Position numbers and translations under genes: made by a program. Below, one piece after another: positions 10,163-60,330 of a stretch of DNA of 64,000 nucleotides. Each line of letters opens with the position of its first letter. The stretch's first letter is position 1. The DNA is taken from positions 62,309 to 126,308 of the forward strand of contig NZ_LMRW01000023.1 of NCBI RefSeq assembly GCF_001428255.1, read 5' to 3'. The notes under the pieces are model-generated. The model was not told the origin of the DNA, ran no database searches, and was given only the letters and a program-made list of their open reading frames with translations. Source of the DNA: Agromyces sp. Soil535 (GTDB taxonomy: Bacteria > Actinomycetota > Actinomycetes > Actinomycetales > Microbacteriaceae).

Positions 10163-10977
10163 CCATGACTGGTTCGCTCGTCGTCACCGATCTGCGCGTC
10201 GAGTTCGATGGATTCGTCGCCGTCGGCGGCGTCTCCTTCGACGCCCACCCCGGCGAGGTCCGATTCCTCATCGGCCCCAACGGCGCCGGCAAAACGACGT
10301 GCATCGACGCCGTCACCGGCTTGTCCAAGGGCTCCGGATCGGTGAAGCTCGGCGACCAGGAGCTGCTGGGCAAGTCCGTCAACAAGATCGTCCGGCTCGG
10401 AGTCGGCCGAACCTTCCAGACCGCGAGCGTCTTCGAGCAGCTCTCGGTTCTGCAGAACCTCGACATCGCGGCAGGGCTCCACCGCTCTTCGCTCTCCCTG
10501 TTGCGTGCCCGACGCGGCGTCGATCCGGCGATCGAGCTGGCGCTGGAGGAGACGGGACTCAGCAAGGAGCGCGAGACGCCCGCAGGCATCCTGTCTCACG
10601 GCCAGAAGCAGTGGTTGGAGATCGGGATGATGCTCGTGCAGGAGCCCCGCGCTCTGCTGCTCGACGAACCCGTCGCCGGTATGAGCCAGGACGAGCGGAC
10701 CGGCACAGGCGAGCTGCTGCAGCGCATCGCCCAGCGCCGCATCGTGCTGGTCGTCGAGCACGACATGGATTTCATGCGCCGTTACGCGTCGCGCGTCACG
10801 GTGCTGCACCAGGGCAAGGTGCTCTCGGAGGGCGCCGTCGCGCAGGTGCAGGCCGACCCCAAGGTGCAGGAGGTCTACCTCGGCACCGCCGGGGCCGCGA
10901 CCACGACCGCCATGCTGGCCGTGGCCGACACGACGACCGCGGTAACGGATACCGCTACGCAAGGGGAGGGGGCCTGA
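10159..10977 (+). CDS. urtD: Urea ABC transporter ATP-binding protein UrtD
   Basis: UrtD is one of two ATPases that power urea import. Walker A (GPNGAGKTT) lies at residues 39-47, the signature motif appears as LSHGQKQ, a UrtD hallmark in place of LSGGQ, and Walker B (LLLDEP) follows near 167-171. The start is a GTG overlapping the urtC stop (GTGA); an ATG two codons on is possible. The last 30 residues are a Thr/Ala-rich tail that goes beyond the usual ABC domain. Confidence 0.93.
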   Translation: MTMTGSLVVTDLRVEFDGFVAVGGVSFDAHPGEVRFLIGPNGAGKTTCIDAVTGLSKGSGSVKLGDQELLGKSVNKIVRLGVGRTFQTASVFEQLSVLQNLDIAAGLHRSSLSLLRARRGVDPAIELALEETGLSKERETPAGILSHGQKQWLEIGMMLVQEPRALLLDEPVAGMSQDERTGTGELLQRIAQRRIVLVVEHDMDFMRRYASRVTVLHQGKVLSEGAVAQVQADPKVQEVYLGTAGAATTTAMLAVADTTTAVTDTATQGEGA

Positions 10978-45444: not shown

Positions 45445-45661
45445 CGGGGCTGTAGCCGGGCGCCCCGGCCAGGGCGAAGCCGATGAACACGATGTTGCCG
45501 GTCATGTTGGCGATGAACACGCGACCCAGACCGAGGACGCTGATGGCGTCGATGAGACCGGTGCCAATGGTGAGCAGGAGCAGGATTGCGGGCAGTGGGC
45601 CGTGCAAGGGATCTGCGAAGTAGCTGTTGGCCCTGGCCGGACGAGCGCCTTCCACACTCAT
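45445..45661 (-). pseudogene. Truncated DUF1275 (YoaK-type) membrane protein gene
   Basis: The first ~70 residues contain the DUF1275 N-terminus: LLLLTIGTGLIDAISVLGLGRVFIANMTGN followed by IVFIGFALAGAPG. Homology stops near 45445 and the remaining three quarters of the gene are absent. The ATG overlaps the stop of the upstream oxidoreductase gene by four bases, so it was once the second gene of a two-gene operon. The break marks a deletion end point. Confidence 0.7.
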
Positions 45662-46584
45662 TTCCCGTTGGAGTCCGTGGCTGTCGATGGGGTCGTGAGG
45701 GGCGGCGCAGTGATCGCGTCGTACACCCACGCGACGTCCTCGTGGCCGTGCCCTTGCTCGCTCGCGGTTGCATAGACGTGTTCGAGCGCGTCGAGATAGG
45801 GGGTTGCGCTTGTGGGGCCGGCGGTCGCCTGGGCCAGACGCAGGTCCTTCAACAGGCCATCGAGCGCGAACTGCGAAGCACGATCCCCGTCGAGGATGGT
45901 CGCGCCCTTGATGCGCGCGTACGGGCTGTCCGAGGCGGAATCGTGGATGGCGTCGAGGAACAGGCTGGGCTCGAGCCCGAACCTCCGGGCGAGCGCAATC
46001 GACTGCGCGATCCCTGCGGTCAGGCTCCCAACCCAGGTGTTGCACACCAGCTTGAGATTCGAGGCCGCGCCCAGACGATCTCCGACGTTGATCGTTCTCG
46101 ACCCGATCGCGTCGAAGATCGGCTGCAGGATGGCCACAGCTGCTCCGTCCCCTGACGCGAGGACGGTCAATTCCCCATGCTCAGCTGGGTCCTTCGTGCC
46201 CAGCACCGGGGCATCGACCACGGTGACGCGATTCTCCGATGCGGCGGCGACGGCCTGCATCCCTTTCGAGCCGATCGTGCTGCTCTGCATCCAGATGGCT
46301 CCCTCGCGAACAGCCGGGAGAAACTCCGCCGCTACCGTCAGCACGGCGTCAGCATCGAACAACATCGTCAGGAGGACGTCGGCGTCTCGCACCGCGTCGG
46401 CCGGCGAGCCCGCCATTCGTGCACCAGCGTCCACAAGCGGTCTCGTCTTCTCAGGGCTCCGGTTCCACACGGTGACACTGAAACCAGATCTGAGCAGCGC
46501 GCGTGCCATCGCCGCTCCCATCGTTCCCGTGCCGAGCACTGCCACCCGCAACGTCTTGGTATCGGTGTGCGCTGAATCAGTCAT
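45658..46584 (-). CDS. NAD(P)-dependent oxidoreductase of the beta-hydroxyacid dehydrogenase family
   Basis: This 308-residue enzyme has the Rossmann motif GTGTMGAAMARALLRSG near residue 15 and the family substrate/catalytic segments DAPVLGTKDPAEHG and KLVCNTW, where the Lys is the catalytic residue of this family (as in 6-phosphogluconate and 3-hydroxyisobutyrate dehydrogenases). The classical GGxxGAxxGxL piece is altered to LGTKDPAEHGELT. The ATG at 46584 follows GGCGAGAGAG; upstream in-frame sequence includes the divergent TetR promoter. The substrate is unknown. It is divergent from the TetR gene, its likely regulator. Confidence 0.85.
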   Translation of the reverse strand: MTDSAHTDTKTLRVAVLGTGTMGAAMARALLRSGFSVTVWNRSPEKTRPLVDAGARMAGSPADAVRDADVLLTMLFDADAVLTVAAEFLPAVREGAIWMQSSTIGSKGMQAVAAASENRVTVVDAPVLGTKDPAEHGELTVLASGDGAAVAILQPIFDAIGSRTINVGDRLGAASNLKLVCNTWVGSLTAGIAQSIALARRFGLEPSLFLDAIHDSASDSPYARIKGATILDGDRASQFALDGLLKDLRLAQATAGPTSATPYLDALEHVYATASEQGHGHEDVAWVYDAITAPPLTTPSTATDSNGK

Positions 46585-46625
46585 TGCTCTCTCGCCATCA
46601 GTTGTCTCTTGCTGGGCCTTCCACA

Positions 46626-46638
46626 TATACTGTACAGC
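46626..46638. promoter_or_regulatory. Operator candidate between the oxidoreductase and TetR genes
   Basis: The 54-bp gap between the two divergent starts contains the palindrome CTGTACAG (46630-46637) inside an AT-rich patch. Read on the minus strand, TACAGT could be a -10 with TTGCGA 16 bp upstream. A TetR dimer bound here would block both genes. TetR family members often bind such divergent gaps. Confidence 0.4.
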
Positions 46639-47262
46639 GTGTCCACTAATTCGCAACCAGTGCCCCGCCGGGGGCGTCCGCGCAGCGAGAACGCGAGGCG
46701 GGCCGTGCTGGATGCCGCAGCCGAACTCGCCCTCGACGGCGCCGCGGGCGCGGGAGTGGACGCGATCGCCGCGCGTGCAGGCGTTAGTCGAACCACCGTG
46801 TACAAGTGGTGGCCGTCGGCCGCAGCCGTGCTGCTCGAGGGACTTCTCGATCGCACGCATGCCACCATCGAATCGGCGCCGTCAGCGACGACGAGCGAGG
46901 CACTCCACACCTATCTCGCGCGGCTCGTCGCCCTCGTGCGCGATACGCCAGCCGGTGCGTTGCTCAAGGGACTCATCGCTGCCTCTTCAGCCGATCCGGG
47001 CGTCGGCCGCGCTCTCGTGGACGACTGGCTCGCACCACGTCGGACCGCCGTCGTGAACCTTCTCGCAGAAGGTGTCCGGCGCGGCGAAGTGCGGGCGGGC
47101 CTCGACTACGGCGCCGTCGCCGATGTGCTGTTCGCCCCGATCTACTACCGGCTGATGTTTCAGCACCAGCCGCTCACCGACGGGCTACCGGCGGAAATCA
47201 TGGCCGTGTGCTGGCCCGGCATCGCGCCATCCGACGAGATTCAAGGAGCGAAGACCGAATGA
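46639..47262 (+). CDS. TetR/AcrR-family transcriptional regulator
   Basis: This 207-residue regulator has an N-terminal helix-turn-helix (GVDAIAARAGVSRTTVYKWWPSAAAVLLEG) and the TetR_C_33-like ligand domain with TPAGALLKGLIAAS. The TVYKWW recognition helix is common in a group of actinobacterial TetR proteins that sit next to oxidoreductases. The GTG at 46639 is chosen because a 10-codon upstream extension would start inside the shared operator. It is divergent from the oxidoreductase gene. Confidence 0.83.
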   Translation: MSTNSQPVPRRGRPRSENARRAVLDAAAELALDGAAGAGVDAIAARAGVSRTTVYKWWPSAAAVLLEGLLDRTHATIESAPSATTSEALHTYLARLVALVRDTPAGALLKGLIAASSADPGVGRALVDDWLAPRRTAVVNLLAEGVRRGEVRAGLDYGAVADVLFAPIYYRLMFQHQPLTDGLPAEIMAVCWPGIAPSDEIQGAKTE

Positions 47263-47552: not shown

Positions 47553-48245
47553 TCAGCCCATCTCGAGTTGGAAGGCGCTGAGTACTCGGTCGGCGGAGGC
47601 TTGGATGTGGTCCCGTACGAGTCGGTGCACCAGATCGCCATCGCGCTGCTCCATCGCGGCGAGGATCGCCCCGTGGTCAGCGGCGAGATCAGGGGTCGGC
47701 AGATGCGTTCGCACCTCGGGCATGATGTGGTGGAGTCGGCGCACCTCGTCGAGCAGACCGGACACGATCACGCTCGCCCGCGTGTTGTCGGCCATTCGCA
47801 CTGCGGCCATATGGAACTCACGGCCCGGTGAGGCTTGTGAGTCGTCGGGGTCCTCTTCTTCCGCCGTGCGCGTCACGAGCTGCCGCAGAAGTTCGAAATG
47901 AGCTGCCGCACCGCCGCGGGCCGCATGGGCGAACAGCCCGGGTTCGAGCAGCAACCGCAGCTCGAATACCTCCTTGATGTCGTGCAGTCGCAGCGGCCGG
48001 ACGAGGTATCCCTTGCGCGGAATGGTGACGATCCAACCCTGCTCGGCGAGCAGTCGAAGCGCCTCGCGCACCGGGGTCTTGGAGACGCCGTAGCGAGCGG
48101 CCAATTCCGCCTCCAGGAGGAGGTCGCCGGGTCGCCACTTCGCAGACAGGATCTCCTCGCGCAGCCGGGCCTGGACCTGATCGGTGAGTGACACCGGTCG
48201 GTCCGTCGCTCGCTCGGCGCCGGTGGGCAGGATCTGCGTCGTCAT
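47553..48245 (-). CDS. GntR-family regulator, FCD subgroup
   Basis: This 230-residue regulator has an N-terminal winged helix (LLEAELAARYGVSKTPVREALRLLAEQGWI) and a helical FCD ligand domain with likely metal ligands (REFHMAA, later HHIMPE and DHGAIL, DHI). FCD proteins usually bind organic acids and repress their own catabolic operon. It is the last gene of the ten-gene operon, 11 bases after the DUF5624-like gene. It is the probable sensor of the substrate or product of this pathway. Confidence 0.88.
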   Translation of the reverse strand: MTTQILPTGAERATDRPVSLTDQVQARLREEILSAKWRPGDLLLEAELAARYGVSKTPVREALRLLAEQGWIVTIPRKGYLVRPLRLHDIKEVFELRLLLEPGLFAHAARGGAAAHFELLRQLVTRTAEEEDPDDSQASPGREFHMAAVRMADNTRASVIVSGLLDEVRRLHHIMPEVRTHLPTPDLAADHGAILAAMEQRDGDLVHRLVRDHIQASADRVLSAFQLEMG

Positions 48246-48256
48246 TTCGTCCCAGC

Positions 48257-49456
48257 CTACTGTCGCTGTTCTGGAGCCGCGAGGGCGACTGGCGGGTATG
48301 GTTCGCCGTCAAGACCGGGCACCGTTACGGCCATCGGATCGTTGCCGGCCTCGAGCAGTTGTTCAGCAACGAAGTCCGTCACCCCTGCCGCAAGCAGCTG
48401 TCGCGGATCCTCCAGCGTCAGCCGGAGGCGGGTGAACATCGTCAGCCAGTCATCTGGTCCGTGGATCCGCGGCATCTCGGTCACCGAGCTCGCGCCGACG
48501 TGAAGGTCGGGACCGTAGAGGCCGGGCTCAGCGAATCGTGGATACCCGTCGTACATGATCGGGGCGAGCTCCGCCGAGGACATCACGCGTGCGAGTTGCC
48601 ACCGGATGGGCTCCTCGGCCGCGACCACCTCCGAGAGATCGCCGTCGCGCGGGGTCTCGAATCCAGGCATGGTCGGGGCAACGAAGATGCGGTCGACGGA
48701 GAGGCGACCACCCGACACCAGGTGCATGATGCGGGCGAGATTCGTCGTCGCCTTCGAGGTGCCGGCGGTGGGGCGGCCCTGGCGGCCGGTGATCGCGAAC
48801 AGGGTGCGATCCCAGTCCACGCGGATCTCGTCGAGCCAGTTCACGAGCCGGTGGGTGAAGTCCAGTGCATACAAGGCGAACGTGGCGATCATGATCCTGT
48901 TCATTGAAACCGGGAGCCCGGTCGACCGACCGTCGAGCAGATCGTCGCGGAGCGTCGCCGGGCTCAGGTATCCGGGCTCCGCGAGTGCGCGCACGAGGTA
49001 GCGCTCCGAGATCGCGCACGCATAGTCGACCATCGCCGCGATGCGTTCTTCGCGACCTTCGAAGGCCGTGATCTCGAGTGATTCCTGCCAGAGCTGTGTG
49101 CCATCGGCGGCTCGTACGCGCCTGGTGTCGTCGATAAGTCGCTGCGCGTCGCGGCGCCACAGCTCGTCCTCACCGCGCAATGAGATCGCGACGATGCTCG
49201 CGATCGCCGGTCCGAGGTGCGAGATCGCGGTCAGTTCGGTGAATCCCGGGATATTGATCCGGAATCCCTGCACCTGAGGCGGAGCGCCCCCGCCCGGGTA
49301 CACGGCGAGGTCGGTCGCGGTGGCGACGATGAGCGTGTCGTCGCGGTGCTCTGCCATCGACAGTGTTGAGAGGTGATCCGCGATCGATTCGCGTCCGGGC
49401 GTCTTCGAGTTGCTGTAGGTCGAGAAGAGGCGTCGGAGTTCGGGACTCTCGTACAT
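48257..49456 (-). CDS. Conserved protein of unknown function (DUF5624-like)
   Basis: This 399-residue soluble protein has no signal peptide or membrane segment. Conserved-looking segments include the N-terminal YESPELRRLFSTY, ATATDLAVYPGGG, ELTAISHLGPA, AMVDYACAIS, TGRQGRPTAG and a C-terminal DPRQLLAAGVTDF. From memory these fit the DUF5624 family, whose function is unknown. The many invariant-looking Arg, Asp and Gly positions suggest an enzyme. The ATG follows AAGGAGA. It stands between the propeller protein and the GntR regulator in the operon. Confidence 0.72.
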   Translation of the reverse strand: MYESPELRRLFSTYSNSKTPGRESIADHLSTLSMAEHRDDTLIVATATDLAVYPGGGAPPQVQGFRINIPGFTELTAISHLGPAIASIVAISLRGEDELWRRDAQRLIDDTRRVRAADGTQLWQESLEITAFEGREERIAAMVDYACAISERYLVRALAEPGYLSPATLRDDLLDGRSTGLPVSMNRIMIATFALYALDFTHRLVNWLDEIRVDWDRTLFAITGRQGRPTAGTSKATTNLARIMHLVSGGRLSVDRIFVAPTMPGFETPRDGDLSEVVAAEEPIRWQLARVMSSAELAPIMYDGYPRFAEPGLYGPDLHVGASSVTEMPRIHGPDDWLTMFTRLRLTLEDPRQLLAAGVTDFVAEQLLEAGNDPMAVTVPGLDGEPYPPVALAAPEQRQ

Positions 49457-49458
49457 GT

Positions 49459-50550
49459 TCAGTCTCCTTCCGAGTCGTCGAATCCGTAGACGACCGTCTC
49501 CGCCGCGAAGGTGGCACCCGGTTCCGGTGCCGCGGACAGCCCGTTCGAGACCGCGATGCGGATCCCGTCCCCGGGGAGCACGGTGACGTCGGTGCCACCG
49601 GTAGTGCGGAATCGCGCGACCGTCTCCAGGCGCCCGCCCTCGTAGCGGTAGATGTGGGAGCGAAGGTCCGGCTGCGGTTCGGCGGGGGTGCCGTAGATGA
49701 AGTCGACTCTGACCAGATACCGGCCGCGCGGTGTCTCCACCCATGCGAACTCCCTGCCGCCCGGTCCGCCCGGCAGGGTGTCGTGCGGCACGAACTCCGT
49801 GCCGTTCCAGCGCAGCAGCACCGAGTCGCCATCGATCCGCGCTACGGCTAGATAGCGCACGGCGCCGTCCTCGATGAGCTGGAATGCCCGGCCGCCGGCA
49901 GGGAGGAGCGACTGGTGTTCGACGAAGCGATCGCCGTCGAATCGGTAGAGGCGGGTCGGGAGCACGTGGTCGGCGTGGGCGAGGTAGGTGTCGCCATCGA
50001 TGTCGAAGGCGGCGAAGTTGTATCCGGCCTTCGACGCGATCTCCTGGAACGGTGCGAACCGCGTTCCGTCCCAATGCAGCACCAGGCTCGACCCGTCGCC
50101 CGAAGGAAGATTCTGGGCCAGTCCGAGGAACGCCGACCCGCCCGCACGAAAGAATCGCCACTGCTTCGCGGCGAAGCTGTCCACGCTCTGGAACGGGACG
50201 AAGCCGCCGCCTTCCGAGACGAAGATCGGCGACCGGGTCGCGAAGTCGTACGGTCCGGACCCGCTCCGGATGGAGGCGACGGCGAGAAACGACCGGCCGT
50301 CCAGTTCGAACGCCTCTGCGTCCTCGCCGCCGCCGACGGGGAGCGTTCCGACGGGCGCGAAGCCGTTCGGGGTGTCGCGGAGGAGCAGCACCTCGGTGTC
50401 CGAGCTTCCGCCGTTGATCCCAGGCGGGCTTCCGGCCGCGTCGGCGGCGAGCTGTGGGATGGCGAGCCAGTGCTGCCCGGCGTGGGTGAAGGCGCTGACC
50501 GCTCGAGCGCCGGTGGTCGGAATGCGCTGGATCTCGGTCAGCAACGCCAT
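49459..50550 (-). CDS. EAR-type beta-propeller repeat protein
   Basis: This 363-residue protein consists of seven repeats of about 45-50 residues, each with a pattern like G..A.AF...G...YLAVA. Examples are ARAVSAFTHAGQHWLAI, GEDAEAFELDGRSFLAV, GYNFAAFDIDGDTYLAH and GREFAWVETPRGRYLVR. This fits the EAR (EPTP) repeat, which forms a seven-bladed propeller. Such propellers bind partners or ligands and some bacterial ones are enzymes. There is no signal peptide, so a cytoplasmic role within the pathway is likely, perhaps as a lactonase-like enzyme. The start follows AGGAGGAGATC. Confidence 0.75.
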   Translation of the reverse strand: MALLTEIQRIPTTGARAVSAFTHAGQHWLAIPQLAADAAGSPPGINGGSSDTEVLLLRDTPNGFAPVGTLPVGGGEDAEAFELDGRSFLAVASIRSGSGPYDFATRSPIFVSEGGGFVPFQSVDSFAAKQWRFFRAGGSAFLGLAQNLPSGDGSSLVLHWDGTRFAPFQEIASKAGYNFAAFDIDGDTYLAHADHVLPTRLYRFDGDRFVEHQSLLPAGGRAFQLIEDGAVRYLAVARIDGDSVLLRWNGTEFVPHDTLPGGPGGREFAWVETPRGRYLVRVDFIYGTPAEPQPDLRSHIYRYEGGRLETVARFRTTGGTDVTVLPGDGIRIAVSNGLSAAPEPGATFAAETVVYGFDDSEGD

Positions 50551-50559
50551 GATCTCCTC

Positions 50560-51435
50560 CTAGCGCCCGAAGAACAGCAGGTCGGGTGACCTCACGAGGA
50601 TCCACTCGCGATCCGCGGCATCCGGTGCCCAGTCGGCGAGTAGACGGAGAAGCTCGCCTGTGTCGCGCTGCCCGTCGGGGAGGTGCGGCCAATCGGTGCC
50701 CCAGAGTAGCCGGTCGGCGCGGGCCGCCACGAGTGCCCGCCCCAACGACGCGACGCTCGAGAGCGGCTCGTCGCCCGCGACACGGTACGGGCCGGTCAGC
50801 TTGATCCAGCAGTTGCCGGCGTGGAGCAGCCCGAGGAGGTTGGTGAAGTCCTCGTCGACGAACCCATCCGACTTCCGCATGTAGCCCATGTGGTCGATGA
50901 CGAAGCGCACCTCGAGGCCGGCGAGGAACGGCAGCAATTCACGGATGACCGAGCCAGGGGCGTAGAACTGCAGATGCCAGTCGAGGGATGTGGCGAGCCC
51001 GGCCATTCGTGTGATGTAGGCCTCGATCTCCGCCAAGGGCAACGATCGCCGTGCGAACAAGTCGAGGCGTATTGCGCGGACCCCGGCCCGGTCGTACTCG
51101 TCCAAGGTTGCCGAGTCGGTGTCGTCGGGCAACCGCACGACACCACGTGCACGGTCGCCGAGCCGGGCCAGTGTGTCGAGGGTGAGCGAATTGTCGTCGC
51201 CGTAGTACGTCGGTTGCACGAGCACCATGCGGTCGATGCCCAGCACTTCGGTCATCGCGAGGTACTGGTCCAGGGTTCCCTCGGGAAACGTGTATTGCGG
51301 ATCCGGAACGTGAGGATAGCCGGCCTCGAAGACGTGGAAGTGGCTGTCGCACGTGCCCGCGGGGAGTGTGAAACCGGGCCTGGAGTACGTGTCGGCCGAG
51401 CGCATCGGCGTCGTGACGGCGAAGGGCAGGTCCAT
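50560..51435 (-). CDS. Amidohydrolase-family protein, LigI-like lactonase/dicarboxylate hydrolase
   Basis: This 291-residue TIM-barrel hydrolase has the N-terminal metal-type motif DSHFHVF, a second His in VIDHMGY and the C-terminal Asp in LLWGTDWPH. This is the layout of the amidohydrolase-2 group that includes 2-pyrone-4,6-dicarboxylate lactonase (LigI), which works without bound metal. The Tyr-Gly-rich segment LVQPTYYGDDN is also typical. A lactone or pyrone substrate is plausible. It abuts the aldolase gene with no gap. Confidence 0.83.
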   Translation of the reverse strand: MDLPFAVTTPMRSADTYSRPGFTLPAGTCDSHFHVFEAGYPHVPDPQYTFPEGTLDQYLAMTEVLGIDRMVLVQPTYYGDDNSLTLDTLARLGDRARGVVRLPDDTDSATLDEYDRAGVRAIRLDLFARRSLPLAEIEAYITRMAGLATSLDWHLQFYAPGSVIRELLPFLAGLEVRFVIDHMGYMRKSDGFVDEDFTNLLGLLHAGNCWIKLTGPYRVAGDEPLSSVASLGRALVAARADRLLWGTDWPHLPDGQRDTGELLRLLADWAPDAADREWILVRSPDLLFFGR

Positions 51436-52248
51436 TCAGGCCTCCTGGCTCATTGAGTCGTACCAGCCGAGCCACCGTTCAACCCGGGTCTTCGCACCCT
51501 CGAACAAGAGGTCGGAATCGGTGCCGGTGAGCAGGAACGGCGCGAACCCCATGTCCAGATACTCGGCGAGCACGCGGGTGTCCGAGATGCCGCCGATCAT
51601 TCCGAGCTTCCCAGTCGACGCGACAGCCGACGCAACCTCCCGTGCAGCGCCCTTCACGCGAGGGTCGTCGTAGCGGCCGGGGATTCCGAGCTCTGCGGTG
51701 AGGTCGTTCGCCCCGATACCGACGATGTCGATGCCGTCGACGGCCGCGATGGCGGCGGCGTTCTCGATTCCGCGAGGCGACTCGAGCAGCACCTTGACGA
51801 TCGTGCCCCGGTCGACGACCGGCGCGAGCTCGATGGACCGCGTCGGTACCATTCCCAGTTGGGGCAACTGCGCCGTCTGCGAGCGATGACCGCGCGGTGG
51901 GAATCGGCACGCGCCGGCGAGGAGTTCGGCCTGCGCGGCGGTCTCGACCCGCGGCACGACGATGCCGTGCGCGCCGCCGTCGAGCAGTCGGCCGATCACC
52001 CCGTAGTCGTTCTCGGGAACCCGAGCGAATGCCGTCAGCCCGAGGTCGTCAGCCGTTGCGCAGAGCGTCGCCGCGGTGTCGATCGACATGGTCGAATGCT
52101 CCAGGTCGATCATGATCCCGTGGTGCCCGGTCGACTTCGCGATGCGGACCACGTCGGTGCTGCGGGAGATGCGGACGCCGAGCACGAGCTGCGGGCGCCC
52201 GGCGCGGAGCTCGGCGACCAGGCGCGGCTCACCTGCGGTCGACGCCAT
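51436..52248 (-). CDS. HpcH/HpaI-family aldolase (class II, citrate-lyase-type fold)
   Basis: This 270-residue enzyme belongs to the HpcH/HpaI family, which cleaves 4-hydroxy-2-oxo acids to pyruvate (or a keto acid) and an aldehyde using a divalent metal. It has the general-base region IMIDLEHSTM, ARVPENDYGVIGRLLDGGAHGIVVPRV and a metal-ligand stretch VLLESPRGIENA followed by GIGANDL. The ATG shares a base with the stop of malate synthase (TGATG). A product such as glyoxylate would feed the neighbouring malate synthase. Confidence 0.87.
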   Translation of the reverse strand: MASTAGEPRLVAELRAGRPQLVLGVRISRSTDVVRIAKSTGHHGIMIDLEHSTMSIDTAATLCATADDLGLTAFARVPENDYGVIGRLLDGGAHGIVVPRVETAAQAELLAGACRFPPRGHRSQTAQLPQLGMVPTRSIELAPVVDRGTIVKVLLESPRGIENAAAIAAVDGIDIVGIGANDLTAELGIPGRYDDPRVKGAAREVASAVASTGKLGMIGGISDTRVLAEYLDMGFAPFLLTGTDSDLLFEGAKTRVERWLGWYDSMSQEA

Positions 52249-54425
52249 CACGATGCCGCCTTCGCCCGGCGCCGATAACCGTGCAGCACCGGCTCGGTAT
52301 AGCCATTCGGCCGCTCGGCCGCTTCCAGGATGAGATCCCGGGCCGCACGGTACGCGAGGGTGGGTGCCTCGGAGCTGCCGAGCGAGCGGTATGCCGGGTC
52401 GTCCGCATTCTGTGCGTCGACTCGTGGCGCGATCCGATCCATGCTTGCGGTCACGTCGTCCCGATCGATCAGGCCGTGCTCGAGCCAGTTCCTGAGCAGC
52501 TGGCTCGAGATCCGCAGGGTTGCCCGGTCCTCCATCAGCGCGGTGTCCGAGAGGTCGGGGACCTTGGAGCATCCGATGCCCTGGTCGATCCACCGCACGA
52601 CGTAGCCGAGGATGGACTGCACGTTGTCGTTCAGCTCGGCCAGTCGCTCGTCTGCGGTGTAGGTATCGGCGACGGCGATCGGGGGTTCGAGAATCGGGCG
52701 GATGCCTCGGCGTGCCCGCCCGGCGAGTTCACGCTGCACCGCGGCGACATCCGTTCGGTGGTAATGCGTCGCGTGAAGCGTGGCCGCCGTCGGTGACGGA
52801 ACCCAGGCGGTGCTGGCGCCGGCGCGAAGCTGGGCGGCCTTCTGATCGAGCATCGCGGCCATGAGGTCGGGCATCGCCCACATCCCCTTGCCGATCTGCG
52901 CACGACCGCCGAACCCCGCCGCGAGGCCGACATCGACGTTGTGGTCCTCATAGGCGGAGATGAACGGGTGGGTTCGCAGTTGCGCCTTGCGGGGGAACGG
53001 GCCGGCGACGGAGGACGTGTGGATCTCGTCGCCAGTTCGGTCGAGGAATCCGGTGTTGATGAAGACGACGCGGTCGCGCGCCACGGCGACGCATGCGGCG
53101 AGGTTGAGAGTGGTTCGTCGTTCCTCGTCCATGATGCCGAGCTTGAGGGTGCGTTCGGGGAGTCCGAACACCCGCTCGACCGCGGCGAACAGGTCGACGG
53201 TCAGGGCAACTTCGTCGGGGCCGTGCATCTTGGGCTTGACGATGTACATCGACCCAGTCCGTGAGTTCCGCAGTCTTGACCGGGCGTGCAGGTCGGGGAG
53301 CGCGGCCGCCACGGTGATCATCGCGTCGAGCACGCCTTCCGGGATCGGCCTGCCGTCGGGGTCGAGCACCGCGTCGATGAACATCGCGTGCCCGACGTGG
53401 CGGATGAACTGCAGTGACCGGCCGGGCAGGACCGCGGGCTCCCCGTCGGCCCCAGTGTGCGGGCGGTCGGGCTCGAGCACCCGCATGAACCTGTGCCCGT
53501 CCTTCTGGACGGCGGCTTCGAGCGTGCCGGTCATGAGCCCCAGCCAGTGGCGGTACGCGCCTACCTTGTCGGCGGCGTCGACCGCGGATGCCGCGTCCTC
53601 GAGGTCCATGATCGTCGTGACCGCGGACTCCAGCACGACATCGCGCACGCCCGCGGCATCGGAAGCGCCGATCGGGTCCTCACGGTCGATGAGGATCTCG
53701 AGATGCAGCCCGCGGTTGGCCAGCAGGATCGCGGTGGGGGTCGCGGGGTCTCCGCGATAGCCGACGAACTGGTGTGGAGCGCGCAGCGCCGTGGTGGGGC
53801 CGTCGGGGAGTGAGACGTGCAGCGTGGAGTCGACCACCGCGTAGGCGGTCGCGTCGGCGTGGGATCCGCGCTCCAACGGGGCTGCGTCGTCGAGGAGGCG
53901 ACGGGCCCAGGCGATCACGGCCGCACCGCGGGCGGGATTGAACGACGAACCGGGTGCGAGGGTTCCCTCGCGTGGGATCGCGTCGGTGCCGTACAGCGCG
54001 TCGTAGAGGGAGCCCCACCGTGCGTTCGCGGCATTCGCCGCGAAGCGGTCGTTCGTGAGCGGCACCACCAGTTGCGGGCCGGCGATCTTCGAGATCTCCT
54101 CGTCGACGCGGTTCGCGGGGATCCGGGTGTCGGCGGCATCCGGCTCGGGCAGGAGGTACCCGATCTCCTCCAGGAACTCGACGTAGCCGTCCAGATCGGC
54201 GATCGGGCCTGGGTGCTTGCGATGCCATCCATCGAGCTGCGCCTGAAGGGCATCACGGTGCTGGAGCGCGGCTTCGATCCGCGGCCGGAACTCCGCGACG
54301 ACGTTGGCGGTACCGGTCCAGAACGTGTCGGGGTCGATGCCGGCGGCGGGCAGCAGTTCGTCGGAGACGAAGTCGTCGAGTCGCGCGTCGACGCTGAGTC
54401 CGGCTCGGATGCGGTGTTCGATCAT
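52248..54425 (-). CDS. glcB: Malate synthase G
   Basis: Malate synthase G condenses glyoxylate with acetyl-CoA to malate. The protein has 725 residues, normal for the G isoform. Family segments are [45 protein letters not shown] (catalytic acid and Arg region) and, near the C-terminus, the [18 protein letters not shown] stretch with the catalytic Asp/Glu surroundings. It lies inside the ten-gene operon, with no isocitrate lyase nearby, so it probably consumes glyoxylate made by this pathway rather than serving the glyoxylate shunt. Confidence 0.94.
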
Positions 54426-55159
54426 CAGTGCTCCTCGGTGGTGGATGCGGCGTGACCACCCAGGAACACGGCGCGCAGGCCAGGGTCATCGAGGAGGCGG
54501 TCGGCGGGGCCGCTGGCGACGAAGCGCCCGCTTTCCATGATCACGCCGGTCGCGGCGAGCGAGAGGCCGAACCGGACGTTCTGCTCCACGAGCACGACGG
54601 TCGTCCCCGCTTCAACGAGCGCGCGGACTGAGCCCGCGAGCGTCTCCCGGGATTTGGGGTCAAGCCCGATCGAGGGTTCGTCGAGGAGGACGACTCGGGG
54701 GCGACTCATCAACGCCCTGGCGAACTCGACCATCCGGCGCTGTCCGCCGGAGAGCAGGCCGGCATGCGCCGATGCCCGCTCTCGGATGATCGGGAACATC
54801 ACGGCCAGTTCGTCGAACCGCTGGCGGGCTGCGCGCCCGCGGATCCGTATGGCGTGACCGCCGAGCAGGATGTTCTCCCGAACGGTCATTCCCGGAAACA
54901 GCGCATTCGTCTGGGGGATCATCACGACTCCGCGGCGGATCGCGGCTGCCGGCCCGATGCCGGTGACCTGCTCGCCGTCGATCTCGATGGTGCCGGACAC
55001 CGGCCGGAGGTCATCGCAGATGACCTTGAGCATGGTGGATTTTCCGGCGCCGTTGGGTCCGACGATGCAGGTCGCTCGGCCCGCTTCAACGGTGAGCGAC
55101 ACATCGCGGAGGACCAGGCCGCCGCCGTAGCCCGCGCTGACGCTGTTCATTCGGATCAC
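54425..55159 (-). CDS. livF: Branched-chain-amino-acid-type ABC transporter ATPase LivF
   Basis: This 244-residue ATPase of the HAAT importer family has Walker [10 protein letters not shown], signature [11 protein letters not shown] and Walker [14 protein letters not shown]. The start is a GTG that overlaps the stop of the permease-ATPase fusion by four bases (GTGA); an ATG three codons later is possible. Its stop shares a base with the glcB start, which ties transport to central metabolism. The imported compound is probably the substrate of the operon, not leucine. Confidence 0.9.
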
Positions 55160-57021
55160 TTCGCACCCCCGGTCACGGGTTCGGAATCCCCGAGGTATGC
55201 GTCGAGCACCACCGGGTTGGAACGGATGTCGTCTGGAGAGCCGCTGGCGATGAGTCGTCCGGCGGCAAGGACATGCACCACGTCGGCGCATCCGAGCACG
55301 AAGGGCATGTTGTGCTCGACGATCAGGACGGTCTTGCCGGCATCGCGCAGCGCGAGGATGATCTCGGTCATCCGATCGATGAGGGCCGGGTTGATGCCGC
55401 TGGCGGGCTCGTCAAGCAGCACCAGGTCGGGGTCGAGCACGAGGACCTGGGCGAGTTCGACGAGCTTCTGCTGGCCGTAGGAGAGATCGCCGGCGCGCAC
55501 GTCGAGGTACCGCGTGAGCCCGACGAGGGCGATCGCGGCCTCGGCTCGTTCCCGTTCGACACCGGACATGGCCGGACTCGCCAGACGTGACCAGCGGAAC
55601 TCGCGGAGCGGGGCGACGAGGTTCTCCCGGACCGTGAGCGCGGGGAACAAGCGGGTCGACTGGAAGGTGCGGCCGACGCCTCGATACGCGTGCTCCCAGC
55701 GGGAGAGGCCGTCGATGCGCTCGCCGTTCAGTCTCACGGTGCCGTCGTCGGCGCGCTGGCTCCCGTCGATCACGTTGAACGCGGTGGTCTTTCCCGAGCC
55801 GTTGGGGCCGATCAAGGCTGTGATCGAGCCGCGGGGTACGGCGAAGGAGCACCCGTCCAACGCGGTGACGCCGCCGTAGCGTTTCGAGAGGCCTGCGACG
55901 ACGAGGATGTCTGGCGACCGGTCGTGGGTCCGGCCGTGGTCCGAGGTCGCCAGCCTGCGAAGGGCCTCACCGATCGGGAGCGTCTCTTCGTCGTCGAAGC
56001 GCCGCCCGGTCAGTGCGTCGTCGGTGCGCTGACGAAGTCTCCCGAGCAGGCCACCGATCGTGGGGATGATTCCCCGCGGCAGGAGCAGGATGACGGCGAG
56101 AAGGATGGCGCCGAAGATCACGAGCTTCCATGCGCCGCCGTCGGCCCCCCCGACCAGTGAGTTGGTGAGCTGCGAGAGCGGTTCGACGATGGCCGCCCCC
56201 AGGAGTGGTCCGACGATCGTGCCGCGGCCGCCGAGGAGCACGGCGAGCACGATCTGCATGCTCACCGCGATCAGGAACATTCCGCGTGGCTCGACGAAGC
56301 CGATGTAGTACGCGTAGATGCCGCCGGCGAGCCCCACCGGCACGCCGCTCAGGACGAGCGCGATGAGCTTGTAGCGAGAGGTCGGGATGCCCACCGAGGC
56401 GGCTTTGTCCTCATCCTCGCGGATGCTCAGCAGTCCCGCTCCGAACTTGGATCGACGGATCACGATCACAAGCGCGACCGTGAGCACCAGCAGTGCCAGT
56501 GTGCCGAAGTAGTACGGCCAGAGCTGGTACTCGGGGTCCACCCTCAGGAACGGCATGACCAGCCCATGGTTGCCGTTGGTGATGGCGGTCAGGTTCATCG
56601 CGAGCACTTTGAGGAGCTCGAGCGCGGCGAAGGTGACGATGATGTATGCGTGCCCGCGGGCGCGCCGTGTGGCGAGTGCGAAGCATCCGGCCAGGAGCGC
56701 GGAGGTGACCGCCGAGGCGGCGATTCCCGCCCACCATGGCATGCCGAGTTGGACGACGAGGACCGCTGTCGTGTACGCGCCGACGCCGAGGAAGGCGCTG
56801 TGGCCGAGGGAGATGTATCCGGTGAATCCGCCCATCACGTTCCAGGTCGAGGCCATGATGGCCAGCAGCATGATCAGGATGAGCACGTTCTGGATGTAGA
56901 GGTCGCTCCAGGTGAGTGGGCCGATGGCGAGGAGGACGATGACGAGCGCGGCGCCGGCGATGGCGATCCAGTGGCGGCGGGGCGTGGCGTTCGTCGGCGG
57001 GGTGGCGGTTGCGATGCTCAT
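55156..57021 (-). CDS. LivM-LivG fusion: ABC transporter permease joined to an ATPase
   Basis: This 621-residue protein joins a LivM-type permease (residues 1 to about 350, with GYISLGHSAFLGVGAYTTAV) to a LivG-type ATPase (from about 375: Walker A GPNGSGKTT, signature LSYGQQK, Walker B LVLLDEPASGINP). LivM-LivG fusions are known in several bacteria. The ATG overlaps the livH stop by four bases. The linker (about 350-375) is Arg/Asp-rich. Together with LivH, LivF and LivK this makes a complete importer. Confidence 0.92.
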   Translation of the reverse strand: MSIATATPPTNATPRRHWIAIAGAALVIVLLAIGPLTWSDLYIQNVLILIMLLAIMASTWNVMGGFTGYISLGHSAFLGVGAYTTAVLVVQLGMPWWAGIAASAVTSALLAGCFALATRRARGHAYIIVTFAALELLKVLAMNLTAITNGNHGLVMPFLRVDPEYQLWPYYFGTLALLVLTVALVIVIRRSKFGAGLLSIREDEDKAASVGIPTSRYKLIALVLSGVPVGLAGGIYAYYIGFVEPRGMFLIAVSMQIVLAVLLGGRGTIVGPLLGAAIVEPLSQLTNSLVGGADGGAWKLVIFGAILLAVILLLPRGIIPTIGGLLGRLRQRTDDALTGRRFDDEETLPIGEALRRLATSDHGRTHDRSPDILVVAGLSKRYGGVTALDGCSFAVPRGSITALIGPNGSGKTTAFNVIDGSQRADDGTVRLNGERIDGLSRWEHAYRGVGRTFQSTRLFPALTVRENLVAPLREFRWSRLASPAMSGVERERAEAAIALVGLTRYLDVRAGDLSYGQQKLVELAQVLVLDPDLVLLDEPASGINPALIDRMTEIILALRDAGKTVLIVEHNMPFVLGCADVVHVLAAGRLIASGSPDDIRSNPVVLDAYLGDSEPVTGGAK

Positions 57022-57902
57022 GCGTGGATCACGTCCGTTCGACCGCGCTGACCCAGGATGCCGGTCGGGCGGACCATGAGCACCACGATGATCACCAGGT
57101 AAGGTACGACGACGGTCCAGCTGAGGGAGACGTACGTCGTGATGAAGGTCTCGAGGATCCCGAGGATCAGTGCTGCGATGAATGTGCCGGCGAGGCTGCC
57201 GAGGCCGCCGAGCACGACGATGGCGAGTCCTCGGCCGAGCCACTGCGCCCACGCGTCGGGACTGAGCGGATAGATCAGGCTCACCAGGGCGCCGCCGGCG
57301 CCGGCGGTGGCCGCGCCGATCGTGTACGTCAGCGCGTTGATCCGGCCGACTTCGATTCCGACGAAGCGTGCGCCCGCCGGGTTGGCGGCTGCTGCCCGGA
57401 TCGCCCGTCCGAGCCCGGTGCGCAGGAGCAGCAGGAGCAGCGCCACGAGCACGAGGACCGCCACGATCGCCGCGTAGAGCTGCGCCTCCGGAATGTTCAA
57501 TTCACCGATCGTGAACGAGGCCCGTGTGTATGGCACCGCGACCGTGAGCGGGGTGTTGCCCCAGATGAGCGCGAAGGCACCCTGGCTGGCGATCATGAGG
57601 GCGAACGTGGCCATCATGGTCCCTCCCTCGCCGCCCGGCATCGCCGGGCGGATGAAGGCCAGGTAGAGCAGGCCGCCGAGTGCCCCCACGGTGATGGCTG
57701 ACAGCGGCACGCTCGCGATCGGGTCGAGCCCGATGGATGACCAGAGGGTGTAGGTCACGTACCCGCCGGCAATGAGCAGGGAGCCGTGGACGAGGTTCAC
57801 GATCCGCAGCACCCCGTAGGTGAGTGACAGGCCGGACGAGGCGAGCGCGTAGACGCTGCCGAGGAGTACGCCGAAGACCAGCGTCTGGAGCAAGAGACCC
57901 AT
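57018..57902 (-). CDS. livH: Branched-chain-amino-acid-type ABC transporter permease LivH
   Basis: This 294-residue permease has the LivH opening (GLLLQTLVFGVLLGSVYALASSGLSLTYGVLRIVNLVHGS) and the cytoplasmic loop GRAIRAAAANPAGARFVGIEV that contacts the ATPase. The ATG at 57902 follows GAAGAAG; the 21-codon upstream extension is polar and not family-like. It lies ten bases after the binding-protein gene. Confidence 0.92.
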   Translation of the reverse strand: MGLLLQTLVFGVLLGSVYALASSGLSLTYGVLRIVNLVHGSLLIAGGYVTYTLWSSIGLDPIASVPLSAITVGALGGLLYLAFIRPAMPGGEGGTMMATFALMIASQGAFALIWGNTPLTVAVPYTRASFTIGELNIPEAQLYAAIVAVLVLVALLLLLLRTGLGRAIRAAAANPAGARFVGIEVGRINALTYTIGAATAGAGGALVSLIYPLSPDAWAQWLGRGLAIVVLGGLGSLAGTFIAALILGILETFITTYVSLSWTVVVPYLVIIVVLMVRPTGILGQRGRTDVIHA

Positions 57903-57912
57903 GGGAGCTTCT

Positions 57913-59151
57913 TCATCCCACCCATGCGGGCTTCGGGTAGACGACGCTCGAGGTCTCGGCGGCATCCTCCGGCAGCACGATCACGAGTCGGCCGTCTTGC
58001 CACTGAGCGAGCGACAGGGAGCCCTGCGGAACGCCTCGTTCGTCCCAGGACATCGGTCCGGCGATGGTCTCGACGGTGTTGGCGTGCAGCCACTCGGCGA
58101 TGCCGTCCTGGTCGATCTCGCCGACCGCTTCGACCGCGGTCTGCAGGATCTGTGCGGCGGCGAACGACGACGATGCGTCATCGTTCGGCGTGGTGCCGTA
58201 CTTCGTCTCGTACGCCTCGACGAACTCCTGGCTGCCCGGGAACTGGGCGCTCGGCGTCCAGCTCACCGGGGTGAAGATCCCCTCGGTGTTCTCCGCGCCG
58301 ATCGAATCGGGGTAGTTGACCGTGTCCGTCGGCGCGTTGGTCTGGAACAGCACCTCTGGGGTGAAGCCGACCCGCTGCAGGGCCTGCACGAGCGAGGCGC
58401 CGTCTTCGGCGACTGCGCCGTGGATCAGTACCTGCGGTGCCGCTCTGCCGATGGCGTCGGCGACCGCGTCGAACGAGGTCTGCTCGACCGGGTAGGAGTC
58501 GTCGTAGACCGTTTCGACTCCCAGTGCCTCGAGTCCGTCCTGGATTCCCTGGACGGCCGGCTCGGTGTTCGGGTCGGTCTGCGTCAGGAATGCCGCGGTG
58601 GCCGGTCGCTCGTCTTCGGGCAGCGACTCGACCCACTCGAGGAACCGGTCGGGCAGTGTCTCCGAGGTGCCGGGCTGCGCGAAGAACAGACGTGTGAAGC
58701 CCTGCTCGAAGATCTCCTGTGCGCCGCCGGACGGCTCGACGTAGACCATGCCGTTCCGCTCCGCGACCGCGGAGGCGGGGAGGTTCAGGGCCGATGAGAA
58801 TGTGCCGAGTAGGAGGTCGACCCGATCTTGACTGATCAGGCGGGTGTAGTTGGATACCACCTGGTCTTGATCGAATCCGTCGTCGAGTACGACGAGTTCG
58901 ACCGGCCGTCCGAGAAGACCGCCGCTTTCGTTGACCTGTTCCGCCCAGAGCTCGTAGCCGTTGTAGCCGGGGCCGGATCGATCGGCGACCGGGCCGGTCA
59001 GGGGCAGCGAAGCACCGATGCGGATCGGGTCATCGGTGTCCGACTCGTTGCCGCTTGCTCCAGCTGTGCAGCCGGCGAGGACTGCTGCGGCCGCAAGAGC
59101 TGTGGTTCCGGCCAGGATTCGGGCGCTGGTGCGCCGGTGGTGCAGGGACAT
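57913..59151 (-). CDS. livK: Substrate-binding lipoprotein of the LivK type
   Basis: This is the receptor of the importer: 412 residues with a lipobox LAGC (Cys28) behind a Leu/Ala-rich core, then a type I periplasmic-binding fold (IRIGASLPLTGPVADRSG, NGYELWAEQVNESGGLLGRPV). The ATG at 59151 follows GGAGAG; a longer frame upstream enters the promoter. It is the first gene of the ten-gene operon. The ligand is unknown. HAAT receptors near aromatic or organic-acid genes often bind those compounds. Confidence 0.9.
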   Translation of the reverse strand: MSLHHRRTSARILAGTTALAAAAVLAGCTAGASGNESDTDDPIRIGASLPLTGPVADRSGPGYNGYELWAEQVNESGGLLGRPVELVVLDDGFDQDQVVSNYTRLISQDRVDLLLGTFSSALNLPASAVAERNGMVYVEPSGGAQEIFEQGFTRLFFAQPGTSETLPDRFLEWVESLPEDERPATAAFLTQTDPNTEPAVQGIQDGLEALGVETVYDDSYPVEQTSFDAVADAIGRAAPQVLIHGAVAEDGASLVQALQRVGFTPEVLFQTNAPTDTVNYPDSIGAENTEGIFTPVSWTPSAQFPGSQEFVEAYETKYGTTPNDDASSSFAAAQILQTAVEAVGEIDQDGIAEWLHANTVETIAGPMSWDERGVPQGSLSLAQWQDGRLVIVLPEDAAETSSVVYPKPAWVG

Positions 59152-59185
59152 GTGCTCTCCTTCGTCGTTGAAAGGTGCCAGCGGT

Positions 59186-59214
59186 ATTCTACTGATATAT
59201 GTGTAAGATAGCAA
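59186..59214 (-). promoter_or_regulatory. Sigma-A-like promoter of the ten-gene livK operon
   Basis: On the minus strand TTGCTA (-35, 59209-59214) and TAGAAT (-10, 59186-59191) are 17 bp apart in an AT-rich patch that stands out from its GC-rich surroundings. It lies 35 bp upstream of the livK ATG. The spacer contains a partial inverted repeat around ATATATGTGTAAGATA that could serve the GntR protein. Confidence 0.55.
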
Positions 59215-59313: not shown

Positions 59314-60330
59314 ATGAACATCCCCACCCTGATGACGAAGGTTGCCGCGCTGAGTGGACATCCCGTGCCGGTCTCGAAACAGCCTGCGCCGTACGACGCC
59401 GAGGACTGCGTCGTGATCGCCGCGAATGCCGCCGGTCAGATCGGCCGGGTCCGAGGGCTGCGGGAGATCCGGAATCGCGCGTTCGTCAGCTATGAGGGGG
59501 CCGGGAAGGGTGGCGCCCCGCTGGTGCTGCGGATGGACATCATTGTTCCCGAGACGCCGGGTCCGCACCCACTCGTGGTCTTCGTCCCGGGAGGTGGATT
59601 CGTCAGGTCGCCCAAGGCAGCCGGTCGGCGGATGCGCCGCGTGCTCGCCGCCGCCGGCTACGTGGTCGCGAGCATCGAGTACCGCACTACCCGGCACGGG
59701 GCCACCTACCTGGACGGACTGGCGGACGTCAGGGCCGCCGTTCGGTTCTTGCGGGCGAACGCCGACGAGTATCGCATCGATCCCACGCGGGTGGCGCTCT
59801 GGGGTGAATCCGCGGGCGGGTACCTCGTCGCGCTGGCCGGAGCCACCAACGGCGATCGCCGGTTCGATCCGGATGGCAACGCCGAGGTCCAGGCGATCAT
59901 CGACAAGTTCGGCGGGTCCGACCTGCGTCGACTCGCCGACGGATTCGACCGGGCGACGATCGACGCCGTCTACGCCCCCGGGAACGCGATCGCCCGATAC
60001 GTGCACGGACCCGGGGCCGTGACCCTCGATGACGACTCGGAAGCGGTGATCGCCGCCGACCCCGCGACGCACGTGAATCCGTCGACACCGCCGTTCCTCA
60101 TCTTCCACGGCAGCGACGATCGAATCATCTCGCCGGTGCAGACCGCACTGCTGCACCAGGCCCTCCTGCGGGCTGGAGTCAACAGCACCCGGTACGTCGT
60201 CACGGGCGCCGGGCATGGGGACCTGGCGGTCAAAGGCGGGGAGGAGAAGTTCTGGACGACCGCATCGATGCTGAAGATCATGACGGACTTCCTCGCCCAA
60301 AGCTTCACCGTCCACGGTCGGGGCGTGTAA
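59314..60330 (+). CDS. Alpha/beta hydrolase (carboxylesterase/lipase-like)
   Basis: This 338-residue esterase-type enzyme has the nucleophile motif GESAGG, an oxyanion PGGGF in place of the usual HGGG(F/W), Asp in HGSDDR and His in GAGHGD. There is no signal peptide, so it is cytoplasmic. The ATG follows CCGGAGG. It is divergent from the livK operon, so it may release the pathway substrate from an ester or lactone. It is the last intact gene before the right repeat. Confidence 0.85.
   Translation: MNIPTLMTKVAALSGHPVPVSKQPAPYDAEDCVVIAANAAGQIGRVRGLREIRNRAFVSYEGAGKGGAPLVLRMDIIVPETPGPHPLVVFVPGGGFVRSPKAAGRRMRRVLAAAGYVVASIEYRTTRHGATYLDGLADVRAAVRFLRANADEYRIDPTRVALWGESAGGYLVALAGATNGDRRFDPDGNAEVQAIIDKFGGSDLRRLADGFDRATIDAVYAPGNAIARYVHGPGAVTLDDDSEAVIAADPATHVNPSTPPFLIFHGSDDRIISPVQTALLHQALLRAGVNSTRYVVTGAGHGDLAVKGGEEKFWTTASMLKIMTDFLAQSFTVHGRGV

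Follow-up and report, generated by a model that had tools for sequence, protein, structure and literature searches.

The window analysed in this study is a stretch of 64,000 nucleotides from Agromyces sp. Soil535 (NCBI RefSeq: GCF_001428255.1, contig NZ_LMRW01000023.1, positions 62,309 to 126,308). Ten head-to-tail genes on its minus strand, from a LivK-type solute-binding protein to a GntR-FCD regulator, follow each other with gaps of at most 11 bp or overlaps of 1-4 bp and are predicted from this spacing to form one operon (Table 1). Two of the encoded proteins, an EAR/EPTP propeller protein and a DUF5624 protein, are the predicted core pair of a gene module, which apparently represents an undescribed bacterial breakdown pathway.

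Table 1. Features of the predicted operon, listed from livK to the regulator gene, with positions in the window.
Feature	Position	Strand	Remark
Sigma-70-like promoter site TTGCTA-17-TAGAAT	59186..59214	-	upstream of livK; 9/12 matches
LivK-type solute-binding protein (Peripla_BP_6)	57913..59151	-	ATG start corrected
LivH-type permease	57018..57902	-	Pfam/NCBIfam
LivM-LivG fusion, permease + ATPase, 621 aa	55156..57021	-	BPD_transp_2 + ABC_tran
LivF-type ATPase	54425..55150	-	Pfam/NCBIfam
Malate synthase G (MSG)	52248..54425	-	PRK02999, TIGR01345 over cut-off
HpcH/HpaI-family aldolase, own subfamily	51436..52248	-	PF03328
LigI/4-sulfomuconolactone-hydrolase-like amidohydrolase (lactonase), own subfamily	50560..51435	-	Amidohydro_2
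EAR/EPTP propeller protein	49459..50550	-	PF03736 repeats, predicted fold
DUF5624 protein	48257..49456	-	PF18538
GntR-FCD regulator	47553..48245	-	Pfam/NCBIfam

Gene families were called by Pfam and NCBIfam, and the genome of the strain was searched as a whole (4.8 Mb on 29 contigs). The LivK and LivH genes are 10 bp apart, LivH overlaps the LivM-LivG fusion by 4 bp and LivF follows after 5 bp, or with an overlap of 4 bp if the alternative GTG at 55159 is used. LivF overlaps MSG by 1 bp and MSG overlaps the aldolase gene by 1 bp. The gap between aldolase and amidohydrolase is 0, and gaps of 9, 2 and 11 bp separate the amidohydrolase, EAR, DUF5624 and GntR genes. A preliminary description of the locus had listed ten minus-strand genes with gaps of up to 11 bp and several 1-4 bp overlaps, and all of this is confirmed from the corrected starts. 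The codon at 59214, which it gave as the livK start, is a TTG that is in frame but lies within the promoter-like site; LivK translation most likely begins at ATG 59151, which is preceded by the Shine-Dalgarno-like GAAGGAG. The same description spoke of one good promoter. The site at 59214-59186 is well placed, but the scan gave two sites against a chance expectation of 1.5 +/- 1.1, and the match by itself is not above chance. As a further correction, LivM and LivG are a single fused gene.

We collected related loci from two plasmid records with DUF5624 relatives and from a genome-collection scan with a four-row alignment, which gave 34 more. These 34 were retrieved through two DUF5624 peptide patterns, so the locus set is conditioned on DUF5624 and is not exhaustive. 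L001 (the window itself) as well as L002 and L007 (one short record, with L002 wholly inside L007) were dropped before counting, which left 35 loci. Matches had to cover at least 80% of a protein to be counted, and the distances given are between matched regions, not annotated genes.

EAR lies beside DUF5624, directly upstream of it on the same strand, in 32 of the 35 loci, with 14-152 bp between the matched regions (the gap in the window is 2 bp). The exceptions are L018 and L026, which have no EAR match, and L027, in which the EAR match is in pieces. In L027 (2778-7730) an IS21-type transposase pair is found beside the DUF5624 gene. The aldolase and lactonase subfamilies of the operon are found together within 10 kb in 22 of the 35 loci. 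In all 22 they are adjacent, 5-133 bp apart, and in 20 they are on the same strand. LivK was found in 11 of the 35 loci. All ten genes are present in the same order and with 56-78% identity in two Microbacteriaceae, L005 (Microbacterium sp. 2FI) and L006 (a Rhodoglobus metagenome-assembled genome). A comparison of the region 5' of livK between these two loci and the window gave the ribosome-binding region and a weak similarity near the -10 box; as a footprint search it gave no convincing operator. The lactonase has relatives in 239 plasmid records; the closest of these (47.9%) is that of L003, which also carries DUF5624 and EAR, and the next one reaches 41.3%. The neighbourhood, on whose conservation elsewhere the preliminary description had staked its grouping of the genes, is thus strongly conserved, and the loci suggest a module shared by Actinobacteria and Proteobacteria.

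DUF5624 was found in 2 of 199 genomes drawn from the family of the window, its own genome included, in 1 of 396 genomes drawn from the phylum, which is again its own, and in 3 of 295 genomes drawn from another genus of the same class (G704, G725 and G846). The genome of the window has a single DUF5624 match and four EPTP matches, all within this operon. In the 295-genome draw the EAR subfamily reaches 564-600 bits in the same three genomes and 69 bits in the next match. The lactonase subfamily scores 517-529 bits in G600, G704 and G846, followed by 203 bits, and the aldolase subfamily is full-length in G704 and G846 with 416-425 bits, followed by 143 bits. The modules of G704 and G846 are full except that MSG and a GntR match are absent. 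G725 has the EAR-DUF5624 pair in an 18-kb region without an aldolase or lactonase match, and this genome is not among the matches listed for either. G600 carries a module remnant without DUF5624 (L086, G600:C19:64500-84400, approximately 8568-10440), in which roughly half of LivK precedes the final part of the aldolase (the last 98 positions only, 132.9 bits) and the whole lactonase, an arrangement that would fit an internal deletion.

The between-locus distances of the EAR, DUF5624, lactonase and aldolase proteins correlate with r 0.81-0.96, and 0 of 2000 permutations reach any observed value. By group, r is 0.84-0.96 for the non-proteobacterial and 0.83-0.96 for the proteobacterial loci. Of all pairs, EAR and DUF5624 correlate most strongly (0.96). 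Part of these correlations comes from shared species history, but their sporadic distribution suggests that the genes travel as a group as well. The gene linkage is far beyond chance; chance clustering was rejected on the basis of the co-occurrence in the 295 genomes and the distance correlation.

The DUF5624 protein matches its Pfam model (Pfam: PF18538) with 139.6 bits against a gathering cut-off of 25 bits, and the EAR protein has four EPTP/EAR repeats (Pfam: PF03736) over the cut-off. AlphaFold2 predictions based on the window and 30 loci for DUF5624 (31 rows) and on the window and 28 loci for EAR (29 rows) have a mean pLDDT (predicted local distance difference test) of 90.9 and 93.3, respectively. 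By Foldseek and VIA-align, the DUF5624 model has the same fold as Legionella lpg1979 (PDB: 4jx2) with Z 34.0 and 3.0 Å over 372 residues, at 23% identity. This entry is titled 'putative secreted protein' and no function is given. The next match has Z 7.3, and no other fold relative stands out with these two tools, though this is no proof of a new fold. The best fold match of the EAR model is the EPTP propeller of LGI1 (Z 36.3, 2.3 Å over 314). LGI1 is a human protein solved with ADAM22, whereas the bacterial EAR protein belongs to a putative catabolic operon and is 13% identical.

Both matches could be taken to mean that EAR and DUF5624 are a binding, sensing or transport partner and that only the lactonase and the aldolase are catalytic, since the LGI1 EPTP domains complexed with ADAM22 have a binding role and the sole solved DUF5624 relative found has the title quoted above and no given function. 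We consider this improbable. No signal peptide is visible by eye at the N-terminus of EAR or of DUF5624 in the window (MALLTEIQ... and MYESPEL...). Moreover, the DUF5624 alignment, made of the window and 33 of the 35 loci (L027 and L035 were left out), has 36 invariant columns in 34 rows, and 12 of them are charged or His: D49, R66, E74, H80, E136, E281, R285, D336, R343, R345, E349 and D350. These twelve columns suggest an active or binding site and not a plain scaffold. The EAR alignment comprises the window and all 32 of 32 loci.

Around the EAR-DUF5624 pair, other parts of the module are exchanged. The Liv-type importer of the window consists of a Peripla_BP_6 binding protein, two BPD_transp_2 domains and two ABC_tran domains, with one permease and ATPase fused. 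The best-scoring solved relatives of LivK are generic Leu/Ile/Val-binding proteins. The LivM-LivG fusion is matched in one piece of 578-618 residues in the 11 other Liv-carrying loci, and those actinobacterial loci in which an importer was matched carry the Liv type beside the module. The alphaproteobacterial loci L003, L030 and L032-L035 share one transporter gene set, which is an Opp-type importer by family search of L003, and L031, L036 and L037 have a common MFS transporter (families read in L031 and L036). The importer is interchangeable between Liv, Opp and MFS types.

The enzymes vary as well. Of the 13 loci that lack aldolase and lactonase, 12 have an alpha/beta-hydrolase with arylesterase-like solved relatives (the match in L027 is partial), compared with 1 of the 22 loci with both (L014). 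After looking at these data, we divided the loci into type A, with aldolase and lactonase, and type B, with the alpha/beta-hydrolase. L012, the thirteenth locus, could be a type A locus cut short, since it carries LivK and its contig stops 4.4 kb past DUF5624. Genes of both kinds are mixed in L014, L016 and L026. An EncM-like FAD oxidase is found in 7 of the 12 loci and an isochorismatase-like hydrolase also in 7. The loci with the EncM-like oxidase are L004, L017, L020, L021, L023, L024, L038 and L026, and all but L026 have the alpha/beta-hydrolase. Most of them, though not L017, have the isochorismatase-like hydrolase, while luciferase-like proteins occur in L004, L017, L026 and L038 and xanthine-dehydrogenase-like proteins in L017 and L038.

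Importers and downstream enzymes thus swap around a fixed core, which pinpoints the unexplained step. From the near-obligate adjacency of EAR and DUF5624 and their distance correlation, we infer that the pair may form one enzyme. It is possible, if doubtful, that this would be a new two-protein enzyme catalysing one common step, for example a dehydration or lactone formation on a phenolic-derived acid, whose product feeds either a type A route of LigI-like lactonase and aldolase or a type B route of alpha/beta-hydrolase, often with EncM-like oxidase and isochorismatase-like hydrolase. If so, it would to our knowledge be the first EAR propeller with a catabolic role.

The amidohydrolase belongs to the same Amidohydro_2 family as LigI, the 2-pyrone-4,6-dicarboxylate hydrolase of protocatechuate 4,5-cleavage (PDB: 4d8l, 4di8). 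We take the active site of LigI to be H31, H33, R124, R130, Y156, H180, R217 and D248. In the alignment to 4d8l seven of these eight residues, all but R130, correspond to H32, H34, R123, Y158, H182, R218 and D248 of the operon protein, which are invariant in 23 of 23 rows. The column of LigI R130 is aligned next to a gap; at this place R129 of the lactonase is R in 23 of 23 rows and R130 in 5 of 23. The D248 column is A or N in two LigI crystal entries. The similarity to LigI reaches only E 2e-35, and in the 295 genomes a margin of more than 300 bits separates the subfamily of the operon protein from the next match. The sole NCBIfam model reached is 4-sulfomuconolactone hydrolase (NF042924), yet with 165 bits against a cut-off of 500. 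LigI sits in a protocatechuate 4,5-cleavage gene cluster, and none of the ten operon genes is of the LigAB, LigC, LigJ or LigK type.

The aldolase matches HpcH_HpaI (Pfam: PF03328) with 96.7 bits against a cut-off of 25, the family of the HpaI, GarL and 2-keto-3-deoxy-L-rhamnonate aldolases. Its D48, H51, R76, E156 and D182 are invariant in 23 of 23 rows and presumably correspond to the catalytic pair, the carboxylate arginine and the metal ligands of HpaI. Position 154 is L in 21 of 23 rows, unlike HpaI, whose counterpart we take to be Q147. The scores for the named enzymes are 99 bits for HpaI (TIGR02311, 99.2 against 368.8), 92 for GarL and 68 for the rhamnonate aldolase, where the cut-offs are 369, 407 and 441. 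With scores so far short of the curated cut-offs, neither the lactonase nor the aldolase can be assigned a substrate.

The GarL score, nearly as high as that for HpaI, would suit a sugar-acid pathway, in which an imported aldonic or aldaric acid lactone is handled by an amidohydrolase like D-galactarolactone isomerase or a sugar lactonase. An aldolase like GarL or RhmA would then yield pyruvate and tartronate semialdehyde or a similar aldehyde, and EAR/DUF5624 would be a dehydratase or epimerase. One solved relative of the amidohydrolase is 4mup, an entry with the bare title AMIDOHYDROLASE, which we take to be D-galactarolactone isomerase, and the propeller dehydratase aldos-2-ulose dehydratase is among the EAR fold matches (Z 28.7, rank 24 amid generic propellers). 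Furthermore, L003 has genes for a DUF1537-type kinase (our name for an SBD_N/NBD_C pair), a PdxA-like protein and an Fe-ADH close by. However, 4mup lacks R, Y and R in the columns of R129, Y158 and R218, the last two of which hold Y and R in LigI, and the aromatic-catabolism genes described below also speak against sugar acids. We regard this pathway as rather unlikely.

The contrast given here is only indicative, since the queries for these aromatic genes came from the loci themselves and the 20 random control stretches from five genomes of a single genus: an aromatic gene other than a CoA ligase is near 7 of the 22 aldolase-lactonase loci and none of the 20 random stretches, and with CoA ligase counted the numbers are 8 of 22 and 1 of 20. 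The preliminary description had not anticipated this context of some relatives. Close to loci that have Liv or aldolase-lactonase genes, we found over curated cut-offs 4-hydroxyphenylpyruvate dioxygenase in L015 and L019, and fumarylacetoacetase in L019 and L012; the fumarylacetoacetase of L015 is 82% identical to that of L019. L022 has protocatechuate 3,4-dioxygenase subunits and 3-oxoadipate enol-lactonase over the cut-offs, with PcaB-like and PcaR-like proteins below, and L016 has a benzoate-CoA-ligase-family protein over its curated cut-off. The 4-hydroxybenzoate 3-monooxygenase-like (PobA-like) protein of L010 is below the cut-off of TIGR02360 and above that of the broader PRK08243, and the one of L022 is 61% identical to it. 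The type B locus L028 has such a protein above the TIGR02360 cut-off. FAD_binding_3 ring hydroxylases are found in L014 and L026, and L031 has an MhpB-like dioxygenase below its cut-offs.

Together with the EncM-like oxidase, these neighbours of some loci would also be expected if the module were the tail of a ring-cleavage route for one particular natural product of aromatic or N-heteroaromatic type, with EAR/DUF5624 as the hydratase or isomerase that acts after pyrone hydrolysis and before the retro-aldol reaction. Such a tail is described for the end of riboflavin catabolism, where pyrone hydrolysis, hydration and retro-aldol cleavage give pyruvate and acetoacetate (PMC12746152). Its LumW-LumY-LumX proteins follow the same logic of pyrone hydrolysis and subsequent retro-aldol cleavage to pyruvate, the nearest described logic we found, but are of other protein families. 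LumW is described as a 40-kDa cobalt enzyme and LumY as a cupin protein, unlike the operon proteins, and 'propeller' occurs 0 times in the main text; the systems are set apart here by description, not by sequence. In addition, no ring-cleaving dioxygenase is among the operon genes of the window, and the EAR-DUF5624 pair is also present where aldolase and lactonase are not. A ring-cleavage tail is an unlikely explanation.

The MSG of the operon reaches 1080 bits for PRK02999 (cut-off 565) and 996.8 bits for TIGR01345 (cut-off 989.15). It is the only MSG over the cut-off in its genome, and MSG is over the cut-off in 10 of the 199 family genomes. A malate synthase A is encoded elsewhere in the genome (707.3 bits, cut-off 594.5), so a dedicated role of the operon MSG in glyoxylate removal is plausible, and a housekeeping role in the glyoxylate shunt was rejected. 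MSG is a true member of its family, is uncommon in the bacterial family of the window and is accompanied by this second malate synthase of the A type, which makes glyoxylate, or an acid closely resembling it, a plausible product in this organism. In G113, a genome of the same family, the module is split over short contigs and MSG is on another contig.

The reading we favour, though it falls somewhat short of being probable, is a conserved catabolic module in which EAR/DUF5624, the LigI-like lactonase and the aldolase lead to pyruvate and glyoxylate or another aldehyde. What the Liv importer takes up would be a small, carboxylated molecule, probably a lactone or a piece of a phenolic from plants or fungi, and EAR and DUF5624 would jointly convert it to a carboxylated lactone or 2-pyrone. 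The LigI-like enzyme would hydrolyse the ring to a 4-hydroxy-2-oxo acid or its precursor, and the metal-dependent aldolase would split this acid into pyruvate and glyoxylate. Malate synthase G would condense the glyoxylate with acetyl-CoA, and the GntR-FCD protein may control the operon in response to an intermediate acid. The preliminary description had proposed a similar pathway, in which lactonase, aldolase and glyoxylate removal fit, and its LigI-like lactonase, HpaI-type aldolase and bona fide malate synthase G are backed by sequence. It had placed the core differently: the MSG and the Liv importer are swappable accessories, and EAR and DUF5624, which it had treated as add-on steps, form the predicted core.

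Several observations weigh against the favoured reading. The activity of EAR and DUF5624 is pure inference, the propeller may be a scaffold only, and no enzyme of the operon obviously makes a lactone. Lactonase and aldolase fail every curated cut-off for a named enzyme by far. Among the 35 loci, 13 have the EAR-DUF5624 pair, or DUF5624 alone, without aldolase and lactonase, and L026 has DUF5624, aldolase and lactonase without an EAR match. Of the 35 loci, L005 and L006 alone have MSG in the cluster, and the pathway may not yield glyoxylate in the others. L005, L006 and the alphaproteobacterial loci match no aromatic-gene query, and L003 has the acid-sugar-type genes nearby, which do not point to aromatics. 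Likewise, Pfam and NCBIfam identified no aromatic gene among the ten operon genes, while the aromatic queries were not run on the window.

No paper on this gene set was found in the literature searched, which covered few subscription journals, and nothing was found there on DUF5624 or lpg1979. By title and abstract, the literature on 'EPTP domain-containing protein' concerns human or animal genes. We also considered an identity with the naringenin/isoflavone (fde/ifc) genes and rejected it: the accessible text of PMC11069340 has 0 mentions each of EPTP, amidohydrolase and aldolase, and that of PMC8552027 has 0 mentions of EPTP. Degradation of ethylenediaminetetraacetate, an idea prompted by the Chelativorans locus L034, where a luciferase-like neighbour was inspected, was dropped as weak rather than excluded. 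The module provides a testable setting for DUF5624 and the bacterial EAR propeller, for neither of which we found a described bacterial function, and suggests an undescribed route in Actinobacteria and Proteobacteria for the degradation of a lactone- or phenolic-derived compound.

Elsewhere in the window, positions 5219-5508 match the Rfam family of the 5' ureB small RNA (60.1 bits), which we take to have been described from Helicobacter; the match may merely mirror conserved urease coding sequence. Past the GntR end of the operon, a gene on the minus strand (45658-46587) encodes a 3-hydroxyisobutyrate/L-threonate-dehydrogenase-like protein, below all cut-offs, and beside it on the plus strand (46609-47262) lies a regulator which is TetR-like by eye and has no NCBIfam match. 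At the other end, an alpha/beta-hydrolase gene (59314-60330, plus strand) is divergent from livK. Relatives of it are found near the module in L008, L011, L015, L022 and L029, and the one in L008 is BD-FAE-like.

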